DNA from: Elusimicrobiota bacterium
GTDB taxonomy: Bacteria; CG03; SLGR01
DNA: 64,000 bases
Assembly: GCA_003553445.1 (NCBI GenBank)
Contig: PWEK01000094.1
Location: 1-64,000, forward strand
Direction: 5' to 3'
In this document: piece after piece, positions 5,041-17,340 of the stretch
Numbering within the stretch: the first letter of the stretch is position 1
Layout: each line of letters begins with the position of its first letter
Notes under the pieces: generated by a model
Told to the model about the DNA's origin: nothing
Seen by the model: the letters and a program-made list of their open reading frames with translations, nothing else
Databases searched by the model: none
Position numbers and translations under genes: made by a program

Positions 5041-5910
5041 TCATAAATACTTTTCTATTATCAACTTAAGCTTTTTCGCTGCGCTTTTGTCAATTTTATC
5101 TTTTTCCGTCACAATCGAGTTCTCTAGAGCCTTTCTGCACCGGCAGGATAAAAATTCCTCCTCCCCCAGGTTGGGAATAATCCTTTTCAGAACTTTCCTG
5201 GCTTTTTTGGAGTTTTCTTTCATCTGGGTCACAACCAGGTCTGCAGAAACCACCCCCTGGGATGTATTCCAGCAGTCGTAATCCGTAACCAGCGCAAGGG
5301 TGCAGTAACAGATTTCAGCTTCTCTTGCCAGCCTTGCTTCCGGCAAAGCCGTCATGCCTATAACATCCATGCCCCACGACCTGTAAATTTTCGACTCGGC
5401 AAAGGTGGAAAACTGCGGGCCCTCTATACAAATATAGGTGCCTCCCAAATGAGTTCTTATCCCCTCCACCTTGCAGACCTTGCCAACCTCATCAGACAAA
5501 GATGAACATACCGGTTTATCAAAGGGAATATGCGCAACAATTCCATTATCGAAAAAAGTTGAAGCCCGGGACCTTGTTCTGTCAAAATACTGATCGACGA
5601 CAACAAAATCCCCTGGTCTTATAGTTTCCTGCATGCTTCCCACAGCGCTCACCGAAATTAAATTTTCAACTCCCATTTTCTTCATGGCGTAAATATTAGC
5701 CCGGTAGTTAATTCCCGAAGGGGGAATGTGATGGCCTTTTCCATGTCTCGGAAGAAAGGCAACTTTAGTACTGTTTAATTCACCCGTGATAACTTTATCT
5801 GAAGGATTTCCAAACGGGGTCTTTATTTTAAGTTCCTTTATTTTCTTTAATCCTTCAAGAGAATATATACCGCTGCCGCCTATAATGCCGATTTTAATCT
5901 TTTTATTCAT
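5041..5910 (-). CDS. mtnP: S-methyl-5'-thioadenosine phosphorylase
   Basis: IGIIGGSGIY, FLPRHGKGHHIPPSGINYRANI, CIEGPQFSTFAES. Confidence 0.93.
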   Translation of the reverse strand: MNKKIKIGIIGGSGIYSLEGLKKIKELKIKTPFGNPSDKVITGELNSTKVAFLPRHGKGHHIPPSGINYRANIYAMKKMGVENLISVSAVGSMQETIRPGDFVVVDQYFDRTRSRASTFFDNGIVAHIPFDKPVCSSLSDEVGKVCKVEGIRTHLGGTYICIEGPQFSTFAESKIYRSWGMDVIGMTALPEARLAREAEICYCTLALVTDYDCWNTSQGVVSADLVVTQMKENSKKARKVLKRIIPNLGEEEFLSCRCRKALENSIVTEKDKIDKSAAKKLKLIIEKYL

Positions 5911-5936
5911 TTTTTCACCTTTTTACTATGTACCAT

Positions 5937-7199
5937 TTAATTTATAATGACTGAACGCCGATAACTATTTGCCTGTCGCGACAAATCTTCCTCCCTGGAA
6001 GAAAACAGCCGGGCAAGAGGCTCACCTTTTTCAACTTTCTCACCTACTTTTTTGTTAACTAAAATACCAGCTGAATAATCCGGCTTTTGCCCTATTCTTT
6101 TACGGCCTGTGCCAAGCGATGATACGCATAAACCTATGGACCTCGTATCCATCGCCCTTATACAGCCGCCTGTTTGCGCTATCACATCCTTATAATAGCG
6201 GGGCTTGGGCAAAACCTTTTCCGGGTTATCGCATACGCGCCTGTCTCCTTTTTGAAATTCTATCATATCACCAAATTTTTCAAGGGCCATCCCGTTTGAA
6301 AGATTCGCTATCGCTTCTTCTTTTGCCCTATGCTTGTCCTCGTAAATTTCTGCCATAACAGCCATCTCGGAAACCAGCTCAACTATCAGCTTTTTTATAT
6401 CCGCAGGGCCAGAACCTTTCATAAGGTCTATTGCCTGCTTTACCTCACATGCATTTCCTATTGCCCTGCCCAGCGGCTGGTTCATGTCAGTTATCATTGC
6501 AATGGTTTTTCGTCCGAATCTTGTTCCAATATCCTCCATATAATCCGCAAGTTTCCTGGCATCTTCATGTTTTCTCATAAATGCGCCGTTACCCGATTTA
6601 ACATCAAGGACTAAACCGCTTGCGCCTTCCGCAATTTTTTTGCTCATAATACTTGCCGCAATCATGGGTATAGACTCAACCGTAGCTGTTACATCTCTCA
6701 GTTCATACAGTCTTTTGTCGGCAGGCGCAATATTTTCCGTCTGACTTATAATCGCTACCCCGATACTCTCCAGCTGCTTCTTGAAATCAGAAACTGACAG
6801 CTCAACTCTACAGCCGGGTATAGACTCCAGCTTATCCAGGGTTCCGCCAGTATGCCCAAGCGCGCGCCCGCTCATTTTCGGAACGACAATTCCCAGAGAA
6901 GCAGCAAGGGGAGCAAGGGTTAAAGAAACCCCGTCTCCAACACCGCCCGTGGAATGTTTATCAACAGCATTTTTTCCAAAAGCGCTAAGATCCACCTGCT
7001 CTCCGGATTCTACCATAATTTCCGTTAAATCGGCAAGCTCTCTGGATACCATCCCTTTAAAATAAACAGCCATTAAAAATGCCGATATCTGATACTCAGG
7101 AACCTCTTTTTTTAACAAACCCTTTATCATGAAATTAAGCTCCCGGCGGCTTAGTTCTCCCCCCTGGCGCTTCTTGTAGATTATGTCGTATGCATTCAT
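5937..7199 (-). CDS. pdp: Pyrimidine-nucleoside phosphorylase
   Basis: KHSTGGVGDGVSLTLAPLAASLGIVVPKMSGRALGHTGGTLDKLESIPG. Confidence 0.94.
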   Translation of the reverse strand: MNAYDIIYKKRQGGELSRRELNFMIKGLLKKEVPEYQISAFLMAVYFKGMVSRELADLTEIMVESGEQVDLSAFGKNAVDKHSTGGVGDGVSLTLAPLAASLGIVVPKMSGRALGHTGGTLDKLESIPGCRVELSVSDFKKQLESIGVAIISQTENIAPADKRLYELRDVTATVESIPMIAASIMSKKIAEGASGLVLDVKSGNGAFMRKHEDARKLADYMEDIGTRFGRKTIAMITDMNQPLGRAIGNACEVKQAIDLMKGSGPADIKKLIVELVSEMAVMAEIYEDKHRAKEEAIANLSNGMALEKFGDMIEFQKGDRRVCDNPEKVLPKPRYYKDVIAQTGGCIRAMDTRSIGLCVSSLGTGRKRIGQKPDYSAGILVNKKVGEKVEKGEPLARLFSSREEDLSRQANSYRRSVIIN

Positions 7200-8005
7200 A
7201 TCCTGGCAATAAACTCTCTTAAAAATTCACTTATAGTTTTGAGGGAATTTTGGGAAATGCGAAGAACTTCTTTATGAGAAGTTCCCTCTTCACCCATACC
7301 GGAAGCCATGTTCGTTATTAATGAAAGGCCGAAAACCTCCAGTCCGCAATACTTCGCCGCAATCACTTCCGGCACAGTTGACATTCCAACCATATCACCC
7401 CCCAATACCCTCACCATTGAAACCTCTGCCGGTGTTTCATACATTGGTCCCGTTGTCGCAGTGTATACACCTTTTTTTAATTTTATCCGCTTTCCTTCAC
7501 CGGAGACAGCCAAAGCTTCTTTAATTAAACGCCGGCTGTAGGCTTCTCCCATATCAATAAATGCGGAGCTTCCTCTAAGCGGGTTATCTCCCATAAGATT
7601 TATATGGTCTGTAATTATTACCATATCCCCCGGTTTAAATTCCGTGTTTACAGAGCCGGCTGCATTCGTAACAATCATTTTTTTTAAGCCGCACCGTGAA
7701 AAAACCCTGACCGGAAAAGTTATCTCCTGCATTGAAAACCCTTCATAATAATGAAGCCTTCCCGACATAATTAGAACCTTAACGCCATTTAACACCCCAT
7801 AAAAAAGCATACCTTTATGCCCCTCAACATCAGGGCTTTTAAAATAAGGGATGTCTTCATAATTTATTTCGGCCTCTTTTCTGAAACCCTCCAGGGCGTC
7901 TCCCAAACCGCTCCCCAAAATCATCAGAACCTCTGGTTCTCCCGGAATATTATCTTTAATAAACTCGGCGCTCTTTTTAGCTCTCTTTTTGTCTATATCA
8001 TTCAT
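7196..8005 (-). CDS. Purine-nucleoside phosphorylase
   Basis: LGSGLGDALEGF, VTNAAGSVN, GPMYETPAEVSMVRVLGGDMVGMSTVPEVIAAKY. Confidence 0.93.
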   Translation of the reverse strand: MNDIDKKRAKKSAEFIKDNIPGEPEVLMILGSGLGDALEGFRKEAEINYEDIPYFKSPDVEGHKGMLFYGVLNGVKVLIMSGRLHYYEGFSMQEITFPVRVFSRCGLKKMIVTNAAGSVNTEFKPGDMVIITDHINLMGDNPLRGSSAFIDMGEAYSRRLIKEALAVSGEGKRIKLKKGVYTATTGPMYETPAEVSMVRVLGGDMVGMSTVPEVIAAKYCGLEVFGLSLITNMASGMGEEGTSHKEVLRISQNSLKTISEFLREFIARI

Positions 8006-9180
8006 TTTTTAATTATTCTCTTTCTAAGTGATTTTCCATGCTCCAGTTTTTCAACACCCAAAAAATCAGCGATTGTCTGCCCGCAGTCAGAAAACTTAAT
8101 ATCACCGCCTAAATATGACGTTTCGGGAAAACTGCTGCCATAAAGAAGAAGCGGAACAAATTCCCTTGTATGGTCCGTGTGGCGCTTATGCTCAGGATCA
8201 CAGCCATGGTCAGCAGTTATCATAAGCAGTTCATTTTCATCCAGGAGCGACAATATTTCTTTAAATTTTTCATCAAACTCCTTAAGCGCTTTTGCGTATC
8301 CTTTCGTATCCCGGCGGTGCCCGTATAGAGAATCAAATTCAACGAGGTTTGCAATAATCAGTCCCTTTTCTTTTTTCTGTCTTTTTATTTCACGGGCTGT
8401 TTTATATACTCCATCCATATTATCTTTAGACTTTATCTCGGAAGTTAAACCCCGGTGCGCAAATATGTCACCAATTTTTCCTATTCCGGTCACAAACATC
8501 CCGCTGGAAGACACCCTCTGCAGCAGCGTATCCGCCGGAGGGGGGAGCGCATAATCCTTTCTGGCAGCGCCGTTACGCTTAAATTTTCCCTTTTTTCCGA
8601 AAAACGGCCTTGCTATTACTCGAGCCACTGCATTATCACCTGTAAGTATTTGCCTGGCTTTTTTACAGTATTCGTAAAGCCTCCGGTGATCCAGCACTTC
8701 TTCATGCGCGGCTATCTGAAAAACAGAATCCGCAGAAGTGTAAACTATCGGATAAGCTGTTTCAATATGAAGCTCTCCGAGTTCTTTAATTATTTCCGTT
8801 CCCGAGGCTGCGCGATTTCCAATTGTTTTTCTTCCAATGGATTTTTCAAATTTTTCAATCAGAAAATCCGGAAATCCGTCCGGGTAAACGGGAAATGAAA
8901 AGTCAAGCGGAACCCCTGCCAGCTCCCAGTGTCCGGTTATGGTGTCTTTACCGGGAGAAGTTTGATGCATTCTTCCCCAGAAACCCCTCGGGTTTTCCGT
9001 TTTGCAAGAGATATCCACAAGGTTTCCCAGTCCCAGGCTGCAGAGATTGGGGATATTAAGGCCAGTTTTCTGATACACATGCAGCAAAGTGTTTGCGCCG
9101 TCATCATTATACTTTCCGGCATCCGGCATTGCCCCTATCCCAAGGCTATCAAGAATAATAAGTATTACCCTTTCAACCAT
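8002..9180 (-). CDS. deoB: Phosphopentomutase
   Basis: ILDSLGIGAMPDAGKYNDDGANTL, GKDTITGHWELAG, TADHGCDPEHKRHTDHTREFVPLL. Confidence 0.95.
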   Translation of the reverse strand: MVERVILIILDSLGIGAMPDAGKYNDDGANTLLHVYQKTGLNIPNLCSLGLGNLVDISCKTENPRGFWGRMHQTSPGKDTITGHWELAGVPLDFSFPVYPDGFPDFLIEKFEKSIGRKTIGNRAASGTEIIKELGELHIETAYPIVYTSADSVFQIAAHEEVLDHRRLYEYCKKARQILTGDNAVARVIARPFFGKKGKFKRNGAARKDYALPPPADTLLQRVSSSGMFVTGIGKIGDIFAHRGLTSEIKSKDNMDGVYKTAREIKRQKKEKGLIIANLVEFDSLYGHRRDTKGYAKALKEFDEKFKEILSLLDENELLMITADHGCDPEHKRHTDHTREFVPLLLYGSSFPETSYLGGDIKFSDCGQTIADFLGVEKLEHGKSLRKRIIKK

Positions 9181-9192
9181 TAAAATTAACGT

Positions 9193-11223
9193 TTACGCTT
9201 CTTTTTTTCTTTCAAATAACTTTTTTGCCTTTTTTGCTATAAATTCAGCAACAAGCTCATATTCAATCATAAGTTCCCACGGGGCGCCGCTTTCACCAAA
9301 CTTATCCTTTACTCCAACCATATCCATCACAAGTGGAGAATTGTAATTCTTTGAGGTATTTATCTCTCCTGCGACTATGTTTCCGAAACCGCCTATCTGA
9401 TGTTCTTCAACTGTAATGACTGCACCGGTCTCCTCTGCAGCGCGCATTACCCCCTTTCTGTCCAAGGGCTTTACCGTATGCATGTCTAAAACCCTTGTTT
9501 CAATGCCGTATTCCTCTTTTAATATCCAGGCAGCCCTCATAGCTTCAGGAACCATCGGGCCGCATGCTATAAGAGACAGGTCTTCTTTTTCATTTTCATA
9601 TTCACTTGAAAGAGACCATTCAAAAGCATCAATGAAATTATCTTTCTCCCCCCGGAACCTTACAACATTTGCCTCCCCGAGTTTAAAAGGGGTCTCTTCC
9701 GTACAGACACAGGCGGTTGCCTCCCGGGCATAGCGGATTAAGGCCGGACCGTCTTTGTAAGCAACAGCCTTTGTGATTTTATATGTTTCAACAGCATCAC
9801 ACGGCACTGTTACCGTCATATTAGGCAGATAATTTGTTACAGCTATTTCTTCCAGCGCCTGATGAGTTGCTCCGTCCGCGCCTACCAGAAGCCCACCGTG
9901 AGCTCCCGCAATTTTCACATTAAAATTATTGTAGCAGACTGTGGTTCTTATCTGTTCCCAAGCCCTTCCCGTAGCAAAAACCCCGAAAGAACCGGCAAAA
10001 GAAATCTTACCTTCCTTAGCAAATCCCGAGGCAACCTGAATCATATTAGCCTCAGCTACACCTACACTGAAAAACCTTTTTTCTCTCTCCGGATTATTCT
10101 TATAAAAATGGTCCATTCTTATTGAACTCGTAATATCAGCCCCGTGAGCAACAAGACTGGTGTCTTCTCCTATTTCCTCCAGGGCTTTTCCGAAACCATT
10201 CCGTGTAGCATTCATCTCTGCCTTCATATTTTCAGATTTATTCCACCAGTACTCTTTTGAAAACGAAGGCAGTTTTTTCTGGATTTTCTCATCCACTTTT
10301 CTCTGATAATCCTCTGCAATCTTAAAAAATCTGTCAACTTCTCTCTCGTCTATATCGTAGCCTATATCCTGCAGCGCTATCTCCAGAGACTCCTCTCCAA
10401 TCCGGCCATCTTTTGGTGCGATACCATGGTAACCCACCGCGTGCTCGGCATATGAAACCCCTTTTCCTTTTATTGTATCAGCGATAATTACCGTCGGGTG
10501 ACCCTTGAAATTTTTAGCGGCTTCAAAAGACTCCAGTATCTCTTCCATATTGTGTCCGTCTATCTCTATCACGTTCCAGCAGAATGATTTGTATTTTTCC
10601 GCCAGTGAAGAAAGGCACATAACCTCTTCCGTCATCCCATCGATCTGAAGTTTATTGTGGTCAATTATCGCCACAAGGTTATCCAGCTTGTAATGAGCCG
10701 CGCACATAACAGCTTCCCACACGGAACCCTCATCCTGTTCCCCGTCTCCCATGATGCAGAAGCTCCTGTAATTTTTACCCTCGAGTCGCGCATTGAGGGC
10801 GCTTCCCACGGCAACGCCAAGTCCATGCCCGAGCGAACCGCTGGAAAACTCCACCCCCTTAACTTTTTTACTGTTGGGATGACCTTCAAATGGCGAACCG
10901 AATTTCCTCAGTGTCATCATCTTTTCAACAGGGAAATACCCGGCCACCCCTAAAGCTGAATATAAAGCCGGGGCTTTATGGCCGGCTGACCAGAATATCC
11001 TGTCTCTGTCCTCCCACCCTGGGTTATTCGGGTCATGAACCGCCACATTTAAATACAGCGCTGAGGCCATATCCATTATTGAAAGTGATCCCCCCGGGTG
11101 TCCCGATCCGGCTGCAGTAATTGCAATCATGTTATAAGCCCGCATCTCTTTTGCTTTTTCAATAAGCTCGTCTTTTTTATATTTTTTTACTACTCTACCT
11201 GATATAGAATCAACTATAGGCAT
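9193..11223 (-). CDS. tkt: Transketolase
   Basis: SGHPGGSLS, GHAPALY-type motif, GDGEQDEGSVWEA, HNKLQIDG; full-length single chain. Confidence 0.94.
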   Translation of the reverse strand: MPIVDSISGRVVKKYKKDELIEKAKEMRAYNMIAITAAGSGHPGGSLSIMDMASALYLNVAVHDPNNPGWEDRDRIFWSAGHKAPALYSALGVAGYFPVEKMMTLRKFGSPFEGHPNSKKVKGVEFSSGSLGHGLGVAVGSALNARLEGKNYRSFCIMGDGEQDEGSVWEAVMCAAHYKLDNLVAIIDHNKLQIDGMTEEVMCLSSLAEKYKSFCWNVIEIDGHNMEEILESFEAAKNFKGHPTVIIADTIKGKGVSYAEHAVGYHGIAPKDGRIGEESLEIALQDIGYDIDEREVDRFFKIAEDYQRKVDEKIQKKLPSFSKEYWWNKSENMKAEMNATRNGFGKALEEIGEDTSLVAHGADITSSIRMDHFYKNNPEREKRFFSVGVAEANMIQVASGFAKEGKISFAGSFGVFATGRAWEQIRTTVCYNNFNVKIAGAHGGLLVGADGATHQALEEIAVTNYLPNMTVTVPCDAVETYKITKAVAYKDGPALIRYAREATACVCTEETPFKLGEANVVRFRGEKDNFIDAFEWSLSSEYENEKEDLSLIACGPMVPEAMRAAWILKEEYGIETRVLDMHTVKPLDRKGVMRAAEETGAVITVEEHQIGGFGNIVAGEINTSKNYNSPLVMDMVGVKDKFGESGAPWELMIEYELVAEFIAKKAKKLFERKKEA

Positions 11224-11303: not shown

Positions 11304-11681
11304 TCAAGAAGAAGAAAGTTTCTCTTCAATCTGCTTAAGCAGCGAATGGGAATCAAAGGGTTTCACCACATAACCGCTTGCGCCTGCCCTCAGACCCTTC
11401 ATTACTTCCATTTCCTGACCCAACGCCGAAAGCATTATTATTTCTATGCCCGAGGTTTCTGGGTTTGTCTTTATCTTTTCCGTTGCCTTAATGCCATCCA
11501 TCCGCGGCATCATAACGTCCATTAATATTAAATCCGGCATTTCTTCAGTCACCTTCTCAACCGCGGCTTCACCGTTTTTGCTGCTCACTACAGTATATCC
11601 ATTTCTTTTCAGCATAAAGGTCAATAATTTTACAGTTGTATCGTCATCCTCAACAAGCATTATCTTTCTTTTACTTATCAT
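11304..11681 (-). CDS. Receiver-only response regulator (CheY-like)
   Basis: MLVEDDDTT, PDLILMDVMMPRMDG, receiver fold with no output domain; start at MISKRK. Confidence 0.88.
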   Translation of the reverse strand: MISKRKIMLVEDDDTTVKLLTFMLKRNGYTVVSSKNGEAAVEKVTEEMPDLILMDVMMPRMDGIKATEKIKTNPETSGIEIIMLSALGQEMEVMKGLRAGASGYVVKPFDSHSLLKQIEEKLSSS

Positions 11682-13626
11682 TTTTTTTCTCTCCATCCGG
11701 ATTTTTATCCCGCAAGTATTTTCTATTCTTTACAGGAAGCAAAACATTTACCCTGGTCCCTGTTTTTTCCTTAGATTTAACCTCAATAGTTCCTCCATGC
11801 ACCTCAAATATACTCCGTGCAAGCGTAAGGCCGATTCCAATACCGTTAACGCTTCTTGTAACAGGATCCTCAAGCTGAAAAAATTCTTCAAAAATACGGC
11901 TGTTCATATCTTCATCTATTCCTATACCATTATCTTTAATTACTGTTTCAAAAAAATCCCCCCTGTGCTTCGTTTTTATGTTTATACTGCCTCCGATTTT
12001 GTTAAATTTCACAGCATTTGAAACCAGCTGCCTTACTGCTTTTTTTATTTTTTCTGCATCCACATAAACATCGCCAATTTTTCTGTCTTTTTTTATTGTG
12101 AATTTTATATTTTTCCTTTCCAGTTCATCCGAAAATTCACTGCAAACATCTTCTATGAGATTATTCCATTGAATTTTTTCTCTCTTAATCTCCAGATCAC
12201 CCTTTCTCAAACTTACAAAATCAATAATGCTGTCTATCTTCTCCCCCAGCAAACGGGCCGAATCCAGAATGTTTTTAAAGCAGCTCTTCTGCTCCTCGGT
12301 TAAATCCCCTGTTTGGCCCTCATACATCACTTCGGAAAATCCCTTTATGGTTGTAAGCGGGGTACGCAACTCATGAGATATTAAAGCGATGAAATTATTT
12401 TTCACCTCATTTAACTCCTTAAGCCTTACATTATCTTCCGTTATAACCGATATCATCCTGTTCCTTTCGATATATTCCGCTAAACGGCTGCTGTAAAGGG
12501 TTAATGTGTTTAGCTCATTTTGTGAAAAACTTTTACTTTTCTTCTTTATTCCTCCAATCATAAGGCCTTTTGTTTTTTCTCCTACTTTTGCGGGAACAAC
12601 AAATATCTTTCTGAAGGAAAGCTTATTGAAAACACTCATTATTTCATCCGGAGCATTAATATCCTTTGCAGCTTTTACACCATTGTTCTTACTTAAAAAC
12701 TCTTTTTTAAGCGCAGGCTTGTTTTCCATGCTGAACTTGCTGTCAAAACTTGAAAAAACATAGTTGAACAAACCGTTATTCAGCTCAAAGTAGGCAGCTT
12801 CACTTACTTTCATGACCCTTTTTATCTCAGCAAAAACCTCCCGGAAAGCGCCTTTGACATCGCCTGCAGCGAAAACCCTTACTGAAAGGTTATAAAGCGA
12901 TTTTAGTTCTTTTACCCTGTTTATCAATCTAATATTTGTTTTTGTAAGTTCATCGGCAGCAGTATCCACCTCCTGGCGTGTTTTACGGGTCATATTCTCC
13001 ATTTCCCGGCTTTTTGAAGAGTTTTCATACAGCTGCTGTATCTGCCGGCCTAAAGCAATGTAGTTACTGAATCCGCTGCCTTTAAATAACCTTCTGCTGC
13101 GGGCAGCTACTGATATTATACCAAATAAAAGCCTGCCTTCCATCATTGGAATATGAAGGACAGGCCCGCTTCCCGCAAACTCAAAACCGGCAGGGTGTTT
13201 TTCAGAAACCACCGGGTTTTCAAAACTTTCAATCTCTCTGCCGATATAATCATTTAAATTGTAAAAAGAGGCATCTTCTCCGCTCAAATCTCCCCTTGTG
13301 ATATGTAGGCGAAAACGCCCTTCGGGCTCCTTCAGCATTACCCAGGCGGCTTCGATTCCCTCCATTTCACATAACTCCTCTAAAATCACACCGGTTATTT
13401 TTTTTATACCGAAAATACTGGATGTGAAACTCATATTTGAACAGACTGTATTGAAAAGCTCTTTCCATTGCAGTTCCCTTAATATCTCCCGCTCCCAGAA
13501 TTTAAAGGCTATGAAAAGAACAATAAAGGCGACGAACGCCCCTGAAGCATACCGCCAATCCGCTAAATACCCTATCAAAGCGGCTGCGGTCAGAAAGATT
13601 ATAGTTAATGTTCTTTTTTTGCACAT
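11671..13626 (-). CDS. Membrane sensor histidine kinase with GAF-like regions
   Basis: Two N-terminal TM segments; FIALISHELRTPLTTIKGFSEV H-box; DNGIGIDEDMNSRIFEEFFQ and GIGIGLTLARSIFEVHGG. Confidence 0.9.
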   Translation of the reverse strand: MCKKRTLTIIFLTAAALIGYLADWRYASGAFVAFIVLFIAFKFWEREILRELQWKELFNTVCSNMSFTSSIFGIKKITGVILEELCEMEGIEAAWVMLKEPEGRFRLHITRGDLSGEDASFYNLNDYIGREIESFENPVVSEKHPAGFEFAGSGPVLHIPMMEGRLLFGIISVAARSRRLFKGSGFSNYIALGRQIQQLYENSSKSREMENMTRKTRQEVDTAADELTKTNIRLINRVKELKSLYNLSVRVFAAGDVKGAFREVFAEIKRVMKVSEAAYFELNNGLFNYVFSSFDSKFSMENKPALKKEFLSKNNGVKAAKDINAPDEIMSVFNKLSFRKIFVVPAKVGEKTKGLMIGGIKKKSKSFSQNELNTLTLYSSRLAEYIERNRMISVITEDNVRLKELNEVKNNFIALISHELRTPLTTIKGFSEVMYEGQTGDLTEEQKSCFKNILDSARLLGEKIDSIIDFVSLRKGDLEIKREKIQWNNLIEDVCSEFSDELERKNIKFTIKKDRKIGDVYVDAEKIKKAVRQLVSNAVKFNKIGGSINIKTKHRGDFFETVIKDNGIGIDEDMNSRIFEEFFQLEDPVTRSVNGIGIGLTLARSIFEVHGGTIEVKSKEKTGTRVNVLLPVKNRKYLRDKNPDGEKKNDK

Positions 13627-15635
13627 ATTGCTATATCAAGCATCAAATTCAATGCATCGCTCTCTTTAATCTTTTCACAGGGAAGCGTCTCATAGGGCAT
13701 TACCGCTTCATCCATCGCCTTGGATATCTCTTTTTTGAAGACAGATGAAGAAATACCCGAACCTTCGGGAGGCTCCAAACAGATTGCTATATCAACATCG
13801 TTATTATCGGCCAGATGCGCGAACTTGCTGAAATTAAGGTCTTTCTCCGAAGAGAACCTATGAGTAAACTGAGGAACAATATAAAAGTTAAACCTTTTCT
13901 GAGAAGCAAGTTTCTTTAATTTTTCAACAATATACATAAAAACATTATCCGTATTCACCGGAAGAAAATAAGCTGCTTTTATCTTTCTGATTTCCTTTTT
14001 TTTGTTACCGATTATCATATTTTCATATTTCTTTGAATCACCGGCCTCATCCTTTTCTCCCTTTCCAGTCTTTGGCTTTTCTTTTTCAGGTTCAACTTTA
14101 CTTATTTTTTCTTCTTTTTTTTCAGGAATTTCTTCTTTTTTCTCTTTTACCCCTGAATTCTGCCTGGGCGGGGGAGGATTGGAAGATGGCGGGTTCTCCT
14201 GCCTTTCATACTCTTTGCACCTGTCGCAATAAAATCTATCGTACTGCTTTATAAAACGCAACGGATATGAACACCTTCCGCAGAACCTTCCCACCTGGTT
14301 TTGCGGAGGGGGAGGCGGATATGGCTGCTGATGAGAAGGAAAACGCTGAGGACCCTGCTGCGCAAATTCCGCATAGACGCCGCAGTTTGAACAGTACCAC
14401 CTTTTATACTGGGGAACATATACCAGCGGAGACATACACATACTGCAATTATGCATAGTACCCTGCGAGCCTCCGGGCGGAGGCGGGGGAGGAGGAGGCG
14501 GAGGTGGCGGTTGTTGATTATATCCGTAAGACTGCTGGGGCTCCTGCCTGGGTTCGGGTTCGGGCCGGGGTTTTACTTTCGGCTTATCTGTCTCCGAATC
14601 CTCTTCATCTTCATCTGCGGGTATTATGTTTTTTATTATGTCTTTTATCAGATCAAGCGACATTTCCTCCTGGGAGAGATTCTTGTAAGCGCTTATACGG
14701 TTGATTATGCCCTCGAGTTCCCTTATGTTGGATGTCAGCCTTTCAGCTATATAATCGCTGATATCTTCGGAGAGCTTCAAGCCTGATTGCTGGGCTTTCC
14801 TGTTAAGTATGGCTTTTCTGGTCTCAAAATTAGGGGCCTTTATATCGGCGGTCAGCCCCCATTCAAAACGGGATTTCAACCTCTCCTCAAGTGTTACCAG
14901 CTTTTTAGGCGGCTTATCAGAGGTCATAACTATCTGCTTGCTTATCTCGTGCATACCGTTAAATATGTGGAAAAACTCCTCCTGGGTTGAATCTGACTGC
15001 TCAAGAAACTGAATATCATCAATTAAAAGCAAATCAACCTTCTTGTACCAATTTCTGACCTCTTTCAACCTGTTTTTTTCAATGCCTTCAACAACTTCGT
15101 TTATAAATTCCTGTGTGCTTATGTAAATTACATTTAACCGGGGGTGTTTATTCTTTACATAATTTCCAATTGCCTGCATCAAATGAGTTTTCCCCAGGCC
15201 AACCCCTCCGTAAATAAAAAGAGGGTTGTAATTTTTTCCGGGGCTTTCCGCCACGGCCTTACTCGCCGCATAAGTGAACCTCGTATTTGCCCCCACAACA
15301 AAAGAGTCGAAACTGTAGTTTTTATTAAGCTTGCTTGTAATACCATTTTCCGGCGCTTCATCAGATGAAGGAGCCTCTCCTTTTTTTCCGGCATAGTTCT
15401 TTGTTACTTTACTCAGCTGCATTTTCAGCTTATCAAGCAGTTCATCTTCTATGTCATATAAAAAAAGCGACCAGTCATATTTTTTTTCGGGTGATGGAAA
15501 AGGCCTGCTGCTTACTTTGCTTAACTTCTCTACTATTCTATCTATGTCTTTTTTGTCCCCGGCCAGATTGAGTTTATACCTTTTTCTGGATTTCGGAACC
15601 GGAGAATGTTCAAAATTATACTCTTTTAAAGCCAC
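13605..15635 (-). CDS. DnaA-like AAA+ ATPase lacking domain IV, with poly-Pro linker, two zinc ribbons and a novel C-terminal domain
   Basis: YSFDSFVVGANTRFTYAASKAVAESPG, GGVGLGKTHLMQAIGNYV, LLIDDIQFLE, RLKSRFEWGLTADI, SNIRELEGIINRI as in DnaA; then PPPPPPPPPPPP, CSMC-x14-CSNC-type and CGRC-x14-CDRC-type ribbons. Confidence 0.85.
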   Translation of the reverse strand: MALKEYNFEHSPVPKSRKRYKLNLAGDKKDIDRIVEKLSKVSSRPFPSPEKKYDWSLFLYDIEDELLDKLKMQLSKVTKNYAGKKGEAPSSDEAPENGITSKLNKNYSFDSFVVGANTRFTYAASKAVAESPGKNYNPLFIYGGVGLGKTHLMQAIGNYVKNKHPRLNVIYISTQEFINEVVEGIEKNRLKEVRNWYKKVDLLLIDDIQFLEQSDSTQEEFFHIFNGMHEISKQIVMTSDKPPKKLVTLEERLKSRFEWGLTADIKAPNFETRKAILNRKAQQSGLKLSEDISDYIAERLTSNIRELEGIINRISAYKNLSQEEMSLDLIKDIIKNIIPADEDEEDSETDKPKVKPRPEPEPRQEPQQSYGYNQQPPPPPPPPPPPPGGSQGTMHNCSMCMSPLVYVPQYKRWYCSNCGVYAEFAQQGPQRFPSHQQPYPPPPPQNQVGRFCGRCSYPLRFIKQYDRFYCDRCKEYERQENPPSSNPPPPRQNSGVKEKKEEIPEKKEEKISKVEPEKEKPKTGKGEKDEAGDSKKYENMIIGNKKKEIRKIKAAYFLPVNTDNVFMYIVEKLKKLASQKRFNFYIVPQFTHRFSSEKDLNFSKFAHLADNNDVDIAICLEPPEGSGISSSVFKKEISKAMDEAVMPYETLPCEKIKESDALNLMLDIAICAKKEH

Positions 15636-15645
15636 TTATCTGCCT

Positions 15646-16248
15646 TTATAATATAAAATCATTCCCAATATTTTTTAATACTTCCTTGTAATTTGATTCA
15701 AAATTCTTTTCAATCCGGTCTTTTCTGCATTTCAATTCCTTTAATTCCGAATTCTGCACACCTGATTCATTTACCGAACAGTTTATCATTCCGCCTGAAT
15801 AGGCCACCCTGGAAAATTCAAGAGCCATTTTTACATCCGTAATTATATTTTTCATTTTTCCCAGCGGGGATTTTAAAATTAATTTTGACAGTTTTTCCGC
15901 GGCAGAAGAGATATTAAGCGATACCTGAGCTGCTTCATACATAGCCTTGCTGAGGCCGCTTCCCTTTTTTTTGTAATTTTTAATTACGGATAAAAACTTT
16001 TCGCTATCCTGCTCTGCCAGCTCCATAGACTCCTCTCTAAGCTCAAGCAGCCCCTTTTCTAAATTGATTGACTCCGCATCTTCCGGATTCTTTTTAAGCA
16101 CCGCTATTCTAAGAGACATCAGCATTAGCGAGCATCCCAGCGCATTTGCCAGCCCTGCGGCATTCCCTCCTCCGGGAGTAGGTTTATCTGAAGAAAGAGA
16201 ATCAATATACTCTCTTATAGTTAACTTTTCCTGCATACGCTCCCGCAC
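15646..16248 (-). CDS. fchA: Cyclodeaminase/cyclohydrolase (FTCD_C family)
   Basis: YIDSLSSDKPTPGGGNAAGLANALGCSLMLM. Confidence 0.85.
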   Translation of the reverse strand: MRERMQEKLTIREYIDSLSSDKPTPGGGNAAGLANALGCSLMLMSLRIAVLKKNPEDAESINLEKGLLELREESMELAEQDSEKFLSVIKNYKKKGSGLSKAMYEAAQVSLNISSAAEKLSKLILKSPLGKMKNIITDVKMALEFSRVAYSGGMINCSVNESGVQNSELKELKCRKDRIEKNFESNYKEVLKNIGNDFIL

Positions 16249-16913
16249 TTAATGATATTTATTGAAGATGACGTTCCTATCCTGTCAGCTCCTGCATTTA
16301 TTAACCCCCTTGCCTGTTCTGCTGTTCTTATTCCTCCGGAAGCCTTTATCTTTACCCGAGGAGACAGGACATTTCTGATAATTTCTATGTCTTTAACTGT
16401 CGCTCCCCGAGTGCCGTATCCTGTAGATGTTTTAACATAGTCAGCTCCCGCTTCCTCTGCTATCACGCTTGCTCTTTCTATCAGTTTTTCATCCAGCAGA
16501 GAGGTTTCGATAATCACTTTCAATACCTTACCGGGAATTTTCTTTCTTACCTCTTCAATGTCCTTTCTTGCCTGAGTATACCTTTCTGACTTTAAATAGC
16601 CGATATTAGCAACCATGTCTATTTCATCTGCGCCGTCCTCAACGGCATTATGCGACTCATGGGCTTTCACATCCGAAACTGAGCCGCCGAGAGGAAAGCC
16701 GCACACAGAAACAACTCTTATACGGCTTTTTTTAAGAAGTTTAAAAGCTAAAGAAACATAAGCCGGACTTACACAAACAGCCGCAAATTTATATTTTTCC
16801 GCCTGGATGCATATGCGTCTTATGTCATTCTCGCCCGCATCAGCTTTCAGAAGAGTGTGCTCAATATGCTTTGCAATATCTGCATTTTTTTTATTCAATA
16901 TCCTCATCCTCAA
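16221..16913 (-). CDS. deoC: Deoxyribose-phosphate aldolase
   Basis: IEHTLLKADA, VSVCGFPLGG, DEIDMVANIGYL, VKTSTGYGTRGATV, IKASGGIRT. Confidence 0.93.
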   Translation of the reverse strand: MRMRILNKKNADIAKHIEHTLLKADAGENDIRRICIQAEKYKFAAVCVSPAYVSLAFKLLKKSRIRVVSVCGFPLGGSVSDVKAHESHNAVEDGADEIDMVANIGYLKSERYTQARKDIEEVRKKIPGKVLKVIIETSLLDEKLIERASVIAEEAGADYVKTSTGYGTRGATVKDIEIIRNVLSPRVKIKASGGIRTAEQARGLINAGADRIGTSSSINIIKCGSVCRKS

Positions 16914-17340
16914 GTTTCATCATAAATTCAATCCGCCTGTTATGGCGTCCGCCTTCAAATTCGGAATTTAAAAATTTTTCTACAATTTCCTCGGCATATT
17001 TTTTCCCTGTATAATCAGCGCCTATACATACTATATTTGCATTATTATGGCGAACCGTGATTTCGGCGTCCCTGGGCTCCCTGGCAAGGGCAGCCCGTAT
17101 GCCTTTAACCTTATTTGCAGCCATACACATCCCCAGACCGCTTCCGCAAATAAGGATACCTTTTCTTACCCTTCCGTTGGAAACAGCATCCGAAACCTTT
17201 TTTGCATACTTTGGATAATCAACCGAATCCCCGCTTTGAGCCCCAAAATCACAAACCTCGTGCCCGGAAGATTCAAGAGAAGACTTTAATGCTTCCTTAA
17301 GTTTAAAACCCCTGTGATCAGAACCAATCGCTATTTTCAC
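16891..17340 (-). CDS. rpiB: Ribose-5-phosphate isomerase B
   Basis: IAIGSDHRGFKLKE, DYPKYAKKV, GILICGSGLGMCMAANKVKGIRAAL. Confidence 0.94.
   Translation of the reverse strand: MKIAIGSDHRGFKLKEALKSSLESSGHEVCDFGAQSGDSVDYPKYAKKVSDAVSNGRVRKGILICGSGLGMCMAANKVKGIRAALAREPRDAEITVRHNNANIVCIGADYTGKKYAEEIVEKFLNSEFEGGRHNRRIEFMMKLEDEDIE

Follow-up and report, generated by a model that had tools for sequence, protein, structure and literature searches.

Is a bacterial protein that annotation software would name DnaA necessarily a replication starter? The question is raised by a stretch of 64,000 nucleotides from an Elusimicrobiota bacterium (assembly GCA_003553445.1, contig PWEK01000094.1, positions 1 to 64,000; hereafter the window), in which a minus-strand gene with a GTG start (13605..15635) encodes a DnaA-derived AAA+ ATPase of 676 amino acids (aa) with a C-terminal domain resembling the MID domain of Argonautes. 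Our analysis indicates that this protein is probably a signalling switch and not a replication starter. It belongs to a family of 28 members in which the same architecture recurs and is therefore not a product of chance; named records carrying the family are metagenome-assembled genomes of Elusimicrobia and Endomicrobia.

The DnaA-type core and its canonical counterpart

The AAA+ module (domain III; 14607..15329, minus strand) gives the protein its likeness to DnaA. It is matched by Pfam Bac_DnaA (E=4e-67) and by the NCBIfam model for DnaA, TIGR00362 (E=2e-106), where its 356.7 bits exceed the curated cut-off of 343.9; because this is an equivalog cut-off, automatic pipelines would misname the gene as the DnaA initiator. 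Walker A, Walker B, the equivalent of arginine finger R285, R281, and sensor II R334 are retained, and all the DnaA hallmark motifs quoted in a first-pass annotation of the window were recovered. That annotation had also reported the domain IV signature to be missing, correctly so: Bac_DnaA_C (domain IV) finds no match in the protein even at E<=1, its place being taken by zinc ribbons and the MID-like domain, and DnaA_N (domain I) likewise finds none in Pfam at that threshold, a different N-terminal domain standing there instead.

The separate canonical dnaA that the annotation had advised looking for exists: contig C103 of the same genome (142 contigs, 97% complete) encodes a DnaA of 453 aa with domains III and IV (Bac_DnaA_C). 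A canonical Bac_DnaA_C gene is also present in 21 of the 23 genomes that carry the family, including 13 of 13 of good quality; the two genomes without one are 66% and 69% complete. Because the ATPase lacks domain IV and its genome holds a separate canonical DnaA, neither of the two outcomes named beforehand as speaking against a non-initiator, a domain IV in this protein or a genome with no other DnaA, was observed. The suggested phylogeny of the AAA+ core places 27 family members on one side of a branch and 31 canonical DnaAs on the other, with a Shimodaira-Hasegawa-like approximate likelihood ratio test (SH-aLRT) value of 98, so that the family forms a single clade apart from canonical DnaA; the tree is unrooted because the DnaC-like outgroup is too long, and the clade may lie inside or beside canonical DnaA.

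Core residues were numbered by E. coli DnaA, using a reference sequence whose residues at the named positions are consistent with the literature. The equivalents of K178, R281, the arginine finger R285, L290, and sensor II R334 are retained in every family member that covers them. K243, which serves domain III contacts, and R245 of the B motif, which serves single-stranded DNA (ssDNA) binding (PMC5742627), behave differently: the former is basic in 72 of 73 canonical DnaAs versus 0 of 27 family members, and the latter in 63 of 73 versus 1 of 27, with Ser at both positions in the window protein. Since the switch residues are kept, domain IV is gone, and K243 and R245 are lost, ATP-driven assembly of the family looks intact, while, judged from sequence, DnaA-box binding is predicted to be lost and ssDNA binding to be weakened.

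The MID-like C-terminal domain

The ~130-aa C-terminal stretch that the first-pass annotation could not recognise is a real domain (residues 548-676; 13608..13994, minus strand), conserved and confidently folded, and it proved identifiable as Argonaute MID-like by both fold and profile. An AlphaFold2 model built from 20 family sequences has a predicted local distance difference test score (pLDDT) of 91.7 and a predicted template-modelling score (pTM) of 0.86, with strands and helices alternating. In a Foldseek search of the PDB, every match with a template-modelling score (TM) >0.5, among the matches listed, is an Argonaute (hAGO2 MID, 0.62; hAGO1, 0.61; CpAgo, 0.60; SPARDA, 0.57; A. aeolicus Ago, 0.52); the probability of the matches at 0.60-0.62 is 1.00, yet their E-values are just ~2e-3 to 2e-2. 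Lumazine synthase gave the lowest Foldseek E-values (8e-4), but its TM of just 0.34-0.49 points to generic Rossmannoid similarity. A TIR identity, raised by a sub-threshold PDB profile match (best E=0.055), was set aside, since fold search and MID profile comparison alike indicate MID; Pfam gave no significant match for the window copy of the domain.

The profile comparison used a long-type MID profile of 13 plasmid-borne and one genomic prokaryotic Argonaute together with A. aeolicus Ago (taken from the PDB search). With hhalign it gave a probability of 84% against 29 family sequences, 94% when companion proteins (described below) were added, and 95% against companions alone, while 92 of the 93 further protein families encoded at these loci reached <=4.8% against MID; the 93rd (c16), a likely companion homologue, matches the C-terminal domain family at 71-95% and gives no match to MID by itself (0.7%). 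PIWI alone scored 0.2% against the C-terminal domain. The match to MID has its caveats, in that single lineages or small subgroups alone score 7-62%, the short-Argonaute MID scores 7-20%, and the score drops when PIWI is added to the target.

The four positions that form the 5'-phosphate pocket of Argonaute MID (Y/H/R, K, Q, K; PMC6299218) are K, S, E, and C in the window protein, and none of the 29 domain sequences from the family retains the last K. No PIWI domain is present in the ATPase; the polypeptide stops at the MID-like domain. Because of the replaced pocket positions and the caveats on the match we call the domain "MID-like": model and alignment together indicate an Argonaute MID-like Rossmannoid fold that appears to have lost its phosphate pocket, for which homology to Argonaute MID is likely and guide binding is not. 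The domain also occurs in a third architecture, a 244-aa protein of genome G252 (L163, 8260-8994) in which it follows an unrelated N-terminal half.

Family, companion, and gene neighbourhood

A search with the C-terminal domain found it in 16 of 16 genomes from the phylum of the window (the G011 copy being just a fragment at the end of a contig), in every sampled genome of two further small phyla (5 of 5 and 3 of 3), and in a handful of genomes from other lineages; across bacteria the family is rare (23 of 386 sampled genomes). In these phyla it is universal and apparently vertically inherited, not plasmid-linked. The N-terminal, AAA+, and C-terminal domains are constant throughout (a few copies are shortened by contig ends). 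The 12-proline run (14475..14510) and the two C4 zinc ribbons, CSMC...YCSNC (residues 397-418; 14382..14447) and CGRC...YCDRC (residues 452-473; 14217..14282), all on the minus strand, are present as the first-pass annotation described them. Members from the window's order have two ribbons, those from the sister group f5/f6 and from f190 have one, and the rest have none; proline runs vary by lineage in the same way and are mostly missing outside the window's phylum. Ribbons and proline runs are lineage decorations, not the essence of the family.

The N-terminal domain (residues 1-83; 15387..15635, minus strand) is predicted to fold as beta-beta-alpha-beta-alpha (pLDDT 89.7); it has no fold match in the PDB (best E=0.21), no PDB profile match, and no Pfam match in a search with the whole protein. 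It recurs in two other contexts. In several relatives a companion gene encodes the N-terminal and C-terminal domains of the ATPase, joined by a long low-complexity linker without an AAA+ module and without any Pfam domain found; it lies directly upstream of the ATPase gene, 0-2 bases apart in most cases (e.g., L115, L114, L120, L121, and L118). In one Endomicrobia genome a diguanylate cyclase (GGDEF) encoded near PilT (L035, 4706-6139) begins with ~85 residues of this domain. The window's genome has the N-terminal domain in the ATPase gene only, which means that not every carrier of the family has the companion.

In the window the genes for RpiB (16891-17340), DeoC (16221-16913), an FTCD_C cyclodeaminase-like protein (15646..16248), the ATPase, a GAF-HisKA-HATPase histidine kinase (11671..13626), and a single-domain CheY-like receiver response regulator (11304..11696) overlap or abut on the minus strand. 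DeoC and RpiB overlap each other (16221..17340) in what appears to be the same operon, FTCD_C lies directly upstream of the ATPase gene across a 10-bp gap and is syntenic in the window's order, the kinase start codon falls inside the 3' end of the ATPase gene, and the receiver gene overlaps that of the kinase. Pentose/nucleoside catabolism genes follow downstream on the same strand (5041..11223): transketolase, a DeoB-type phosphopentomutase, two purine phosphorylase-type genes, and one thymidine/pyrimidine phosphorylase-type gene, named partly by reading the sequence.

Across 28 loci, with counts limited by contig ends, a receiver lies <=3 genes downstream of the ATPase gene in 17, transketolase lies downstream in 19 and RpiB upstream in 12, and PilT adjoins the ATPase gene or the companion in eight (three lineages). 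No dnaA or dnaN gene stands next to the ATPase gene in any of them, and no defence genes were seen nearby. The genome of the window (G000) encodes five PilT-family ATPases (contigs C29, C78, C61, C20, and C50), one of them in a 710-aa open frame. The syntenic pentose/nucleoside cluster of some relatives includes genes for a bacterial microcompartment (BMC) shell protein, a PduS-like RnfC/51K protein, and a PduL-type phosphotransacylase (L115, 8607-10495; equivalents in L114 and L034; L124, 7397-7999), which suggests a microcompartment for the pathway. At L115 (5399-6820), a 473-aa protein fuses the DeoC aldolase to an N-terminal flavoprotein-like domain, and several relatives have this fusion at the syntenic position.

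Possible roles and relation to known systems

The explanation that we favour, and to which we give about an even chance, is that the family is an ancient DnaA paralog turned DNA-independent signalling switch whose output is most likely a surface or motility process. ATP-bound protomers would assemble head-to-tail through the DnaA interface, without DNA; the N-terminal domain may be a docking adaptor that gathers the companion and, in some lineages, the diguanylate cyclase; the MID-like domain could act as a sensor for a small ligand or partner; and the neighbouring histidine kinase and receiver would supply input to, or read out, the state of the ATPase. One candidate for this cell-surface or motility process is the retraction of type IV pili (PilT), perhaps adjusted to the supply of pentoses and nucleosides. 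We propose more tentatively, at somewhat under even confidence, that all sampled genomes of three small phyla share an undescribed signalling system composed of a DNA-free DnaA-derived ATPase, a repurposed Argonaute MID sensor, the companion, and two-component and cyclic di-GMP proteins; a literature search found no relevant paper that connects DnaA to Argonaute MID, or to PilT and Elusimicrobia.

Several observations weigh against a DNA-independent switch with a surface output. Neither PilT nor the companion is encoded in the window's own operon, and the neighbours conserved most widely around the ATPase are metabolic (RpiB and transketolase). PilT is encoded in 22 of the 23 family genomes (the exception is 66% complete), usually in several copies, so that co-occurrence says little and only adjacency is informative. 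The equivalent of V211 (H motif), the hydrophobic ssDNA-binding residue of the initiator-specific motif (PMC8287927), is I or V in 22 of 27 members, and some ssDNA binding is possible. The first-pass annotation had itself proposed a DnaA-derived switch acting elsewhere than at oriC; a paralog with intact residues for oligomerisation and the ATP switch, no box-binding domain, and a canonical DnaA beside it agrees with this, but the proline run and ribbons included in that proposal are not general to the family.

The metabolic neighbours might instead mean that the ATPase regulates its own pentose/nucleoside operon, with the MID-like domain as its sensor for a nucleoside or sugar; together with the kinase and receiver, the ATPase would set the expression or assembly of the pathway or of the relatives' microcompartment. 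The tightly packed gene order in the window, the recurrence of transketolase and RpiB in several lineages, and the BMC, PduS-like, and PduL-like genes of some relatives suit such a role; neither the ATPase nor the receiver has a transcription-factor DNA-binding domain, however, PilT and the GGDEF protein with the shared N-terminal domain fit poorly, and the gene order may be merely old, so we consider this unlikely without dismissing it. A replication regulator acting on DnaA, the other role offered in the first-pass annotation, would co-assemble with canonical DnaA through the AAA+ interface and cap filaments or trigger DnaA-ATP hydrolysis. Hda is likewise a DnaA domain III without domain IV (PMC5835720), the equivalents of the trans-acting arginine finger, R281, and L290 are retained, and canonical DnaA occurs in the same genomes. 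Against this, the neighbours are not replication-initiation genes, with no dnaA or dnaN adjacency, and no link to DnaA or the clamp was found; the ATPase scores 124.8 bits against an Hda model cut-off of 194.8 and bears three further kinds of domain, and the companion shares both of its end domains but not its AAA+ core. We rate the proposal as improbable.

The MID-like fold and profile match could also point to a guide-binding Argonaute-like system in which the domain would hold a small nucleic acid by its 5' end, leaving the AAA+ ring to act on the target. With the pocket replaced, PIWI absent, no defence neighbours seen, and PADLOC returning just a weak match to the AAA region and no other defence model, this is very unlikely; among PHROGs there was a single weak match, in one family member. 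That the ATPase passes the DnaA cut-off would agree with a second, degenerate initiator, serving a second replicon or growth-phase-specific initiation, but domain IV is missing, the K243 and R245 equivalents are lost family-wide, and the family is universal in these phyla with an apparently vertical, not plasmid-linked, inheritance; we give this next to no credence.

DnaA is usually treated as a protein of one purpose, and here a DnaA-derived ATPase appears to have been recruited for another role in whole phyla. If the signalling-switch explanation is right, the DnaA assembly machine can be detached from DNA and put to another use, and proteins other than Argonautes contain relatives of the Argonaute MID fold whose pocket differs, a point that matters for the origin of MID. 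Naming based on TIGR00362 can label a non-initiator as DnaA and mislead studies of origins and replication in these lineages.

Among known systems, the helper ATPases IstB, DnaC, and DnaI belong with the ATPase to the initiator-type AAA+ superfamily, but they match it far more weakly than DnaA does and differ in partners and architecture. The MID domains of long prokaryotic Argonautes and hAGO2 agree with the C-terminal domain in strand-helix order, length, and fold, and its conserved LN and 'gip.e/q.i' region aligns in register; in the ATPase, the domain is joined to a DnaA-type module in place of PIWI and has its pocket residues replaced. Hda (TIGR03420) shares the domain III-only design and the coexistence with DnaA, whereas the ATPase falls well under the Hda cut-off, is more than twice as long through its added domains, and has signalling and metabolic neighbours. 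DnaA itself (PF00308/TIGR00362) shares its AAA+ module with the family, the residues for ATPase activity and oligomerisation all included; the family differs in lacking domain I, the DnaA-box domain IV, and the K243 and R245 equivalents, in adding the N-terminal domain, zinc ribbons, and MID-like domain, and in forming its own clade beside a canonical DnaA, in whose presence the ATPase is not the sole or main initiator of its genome.

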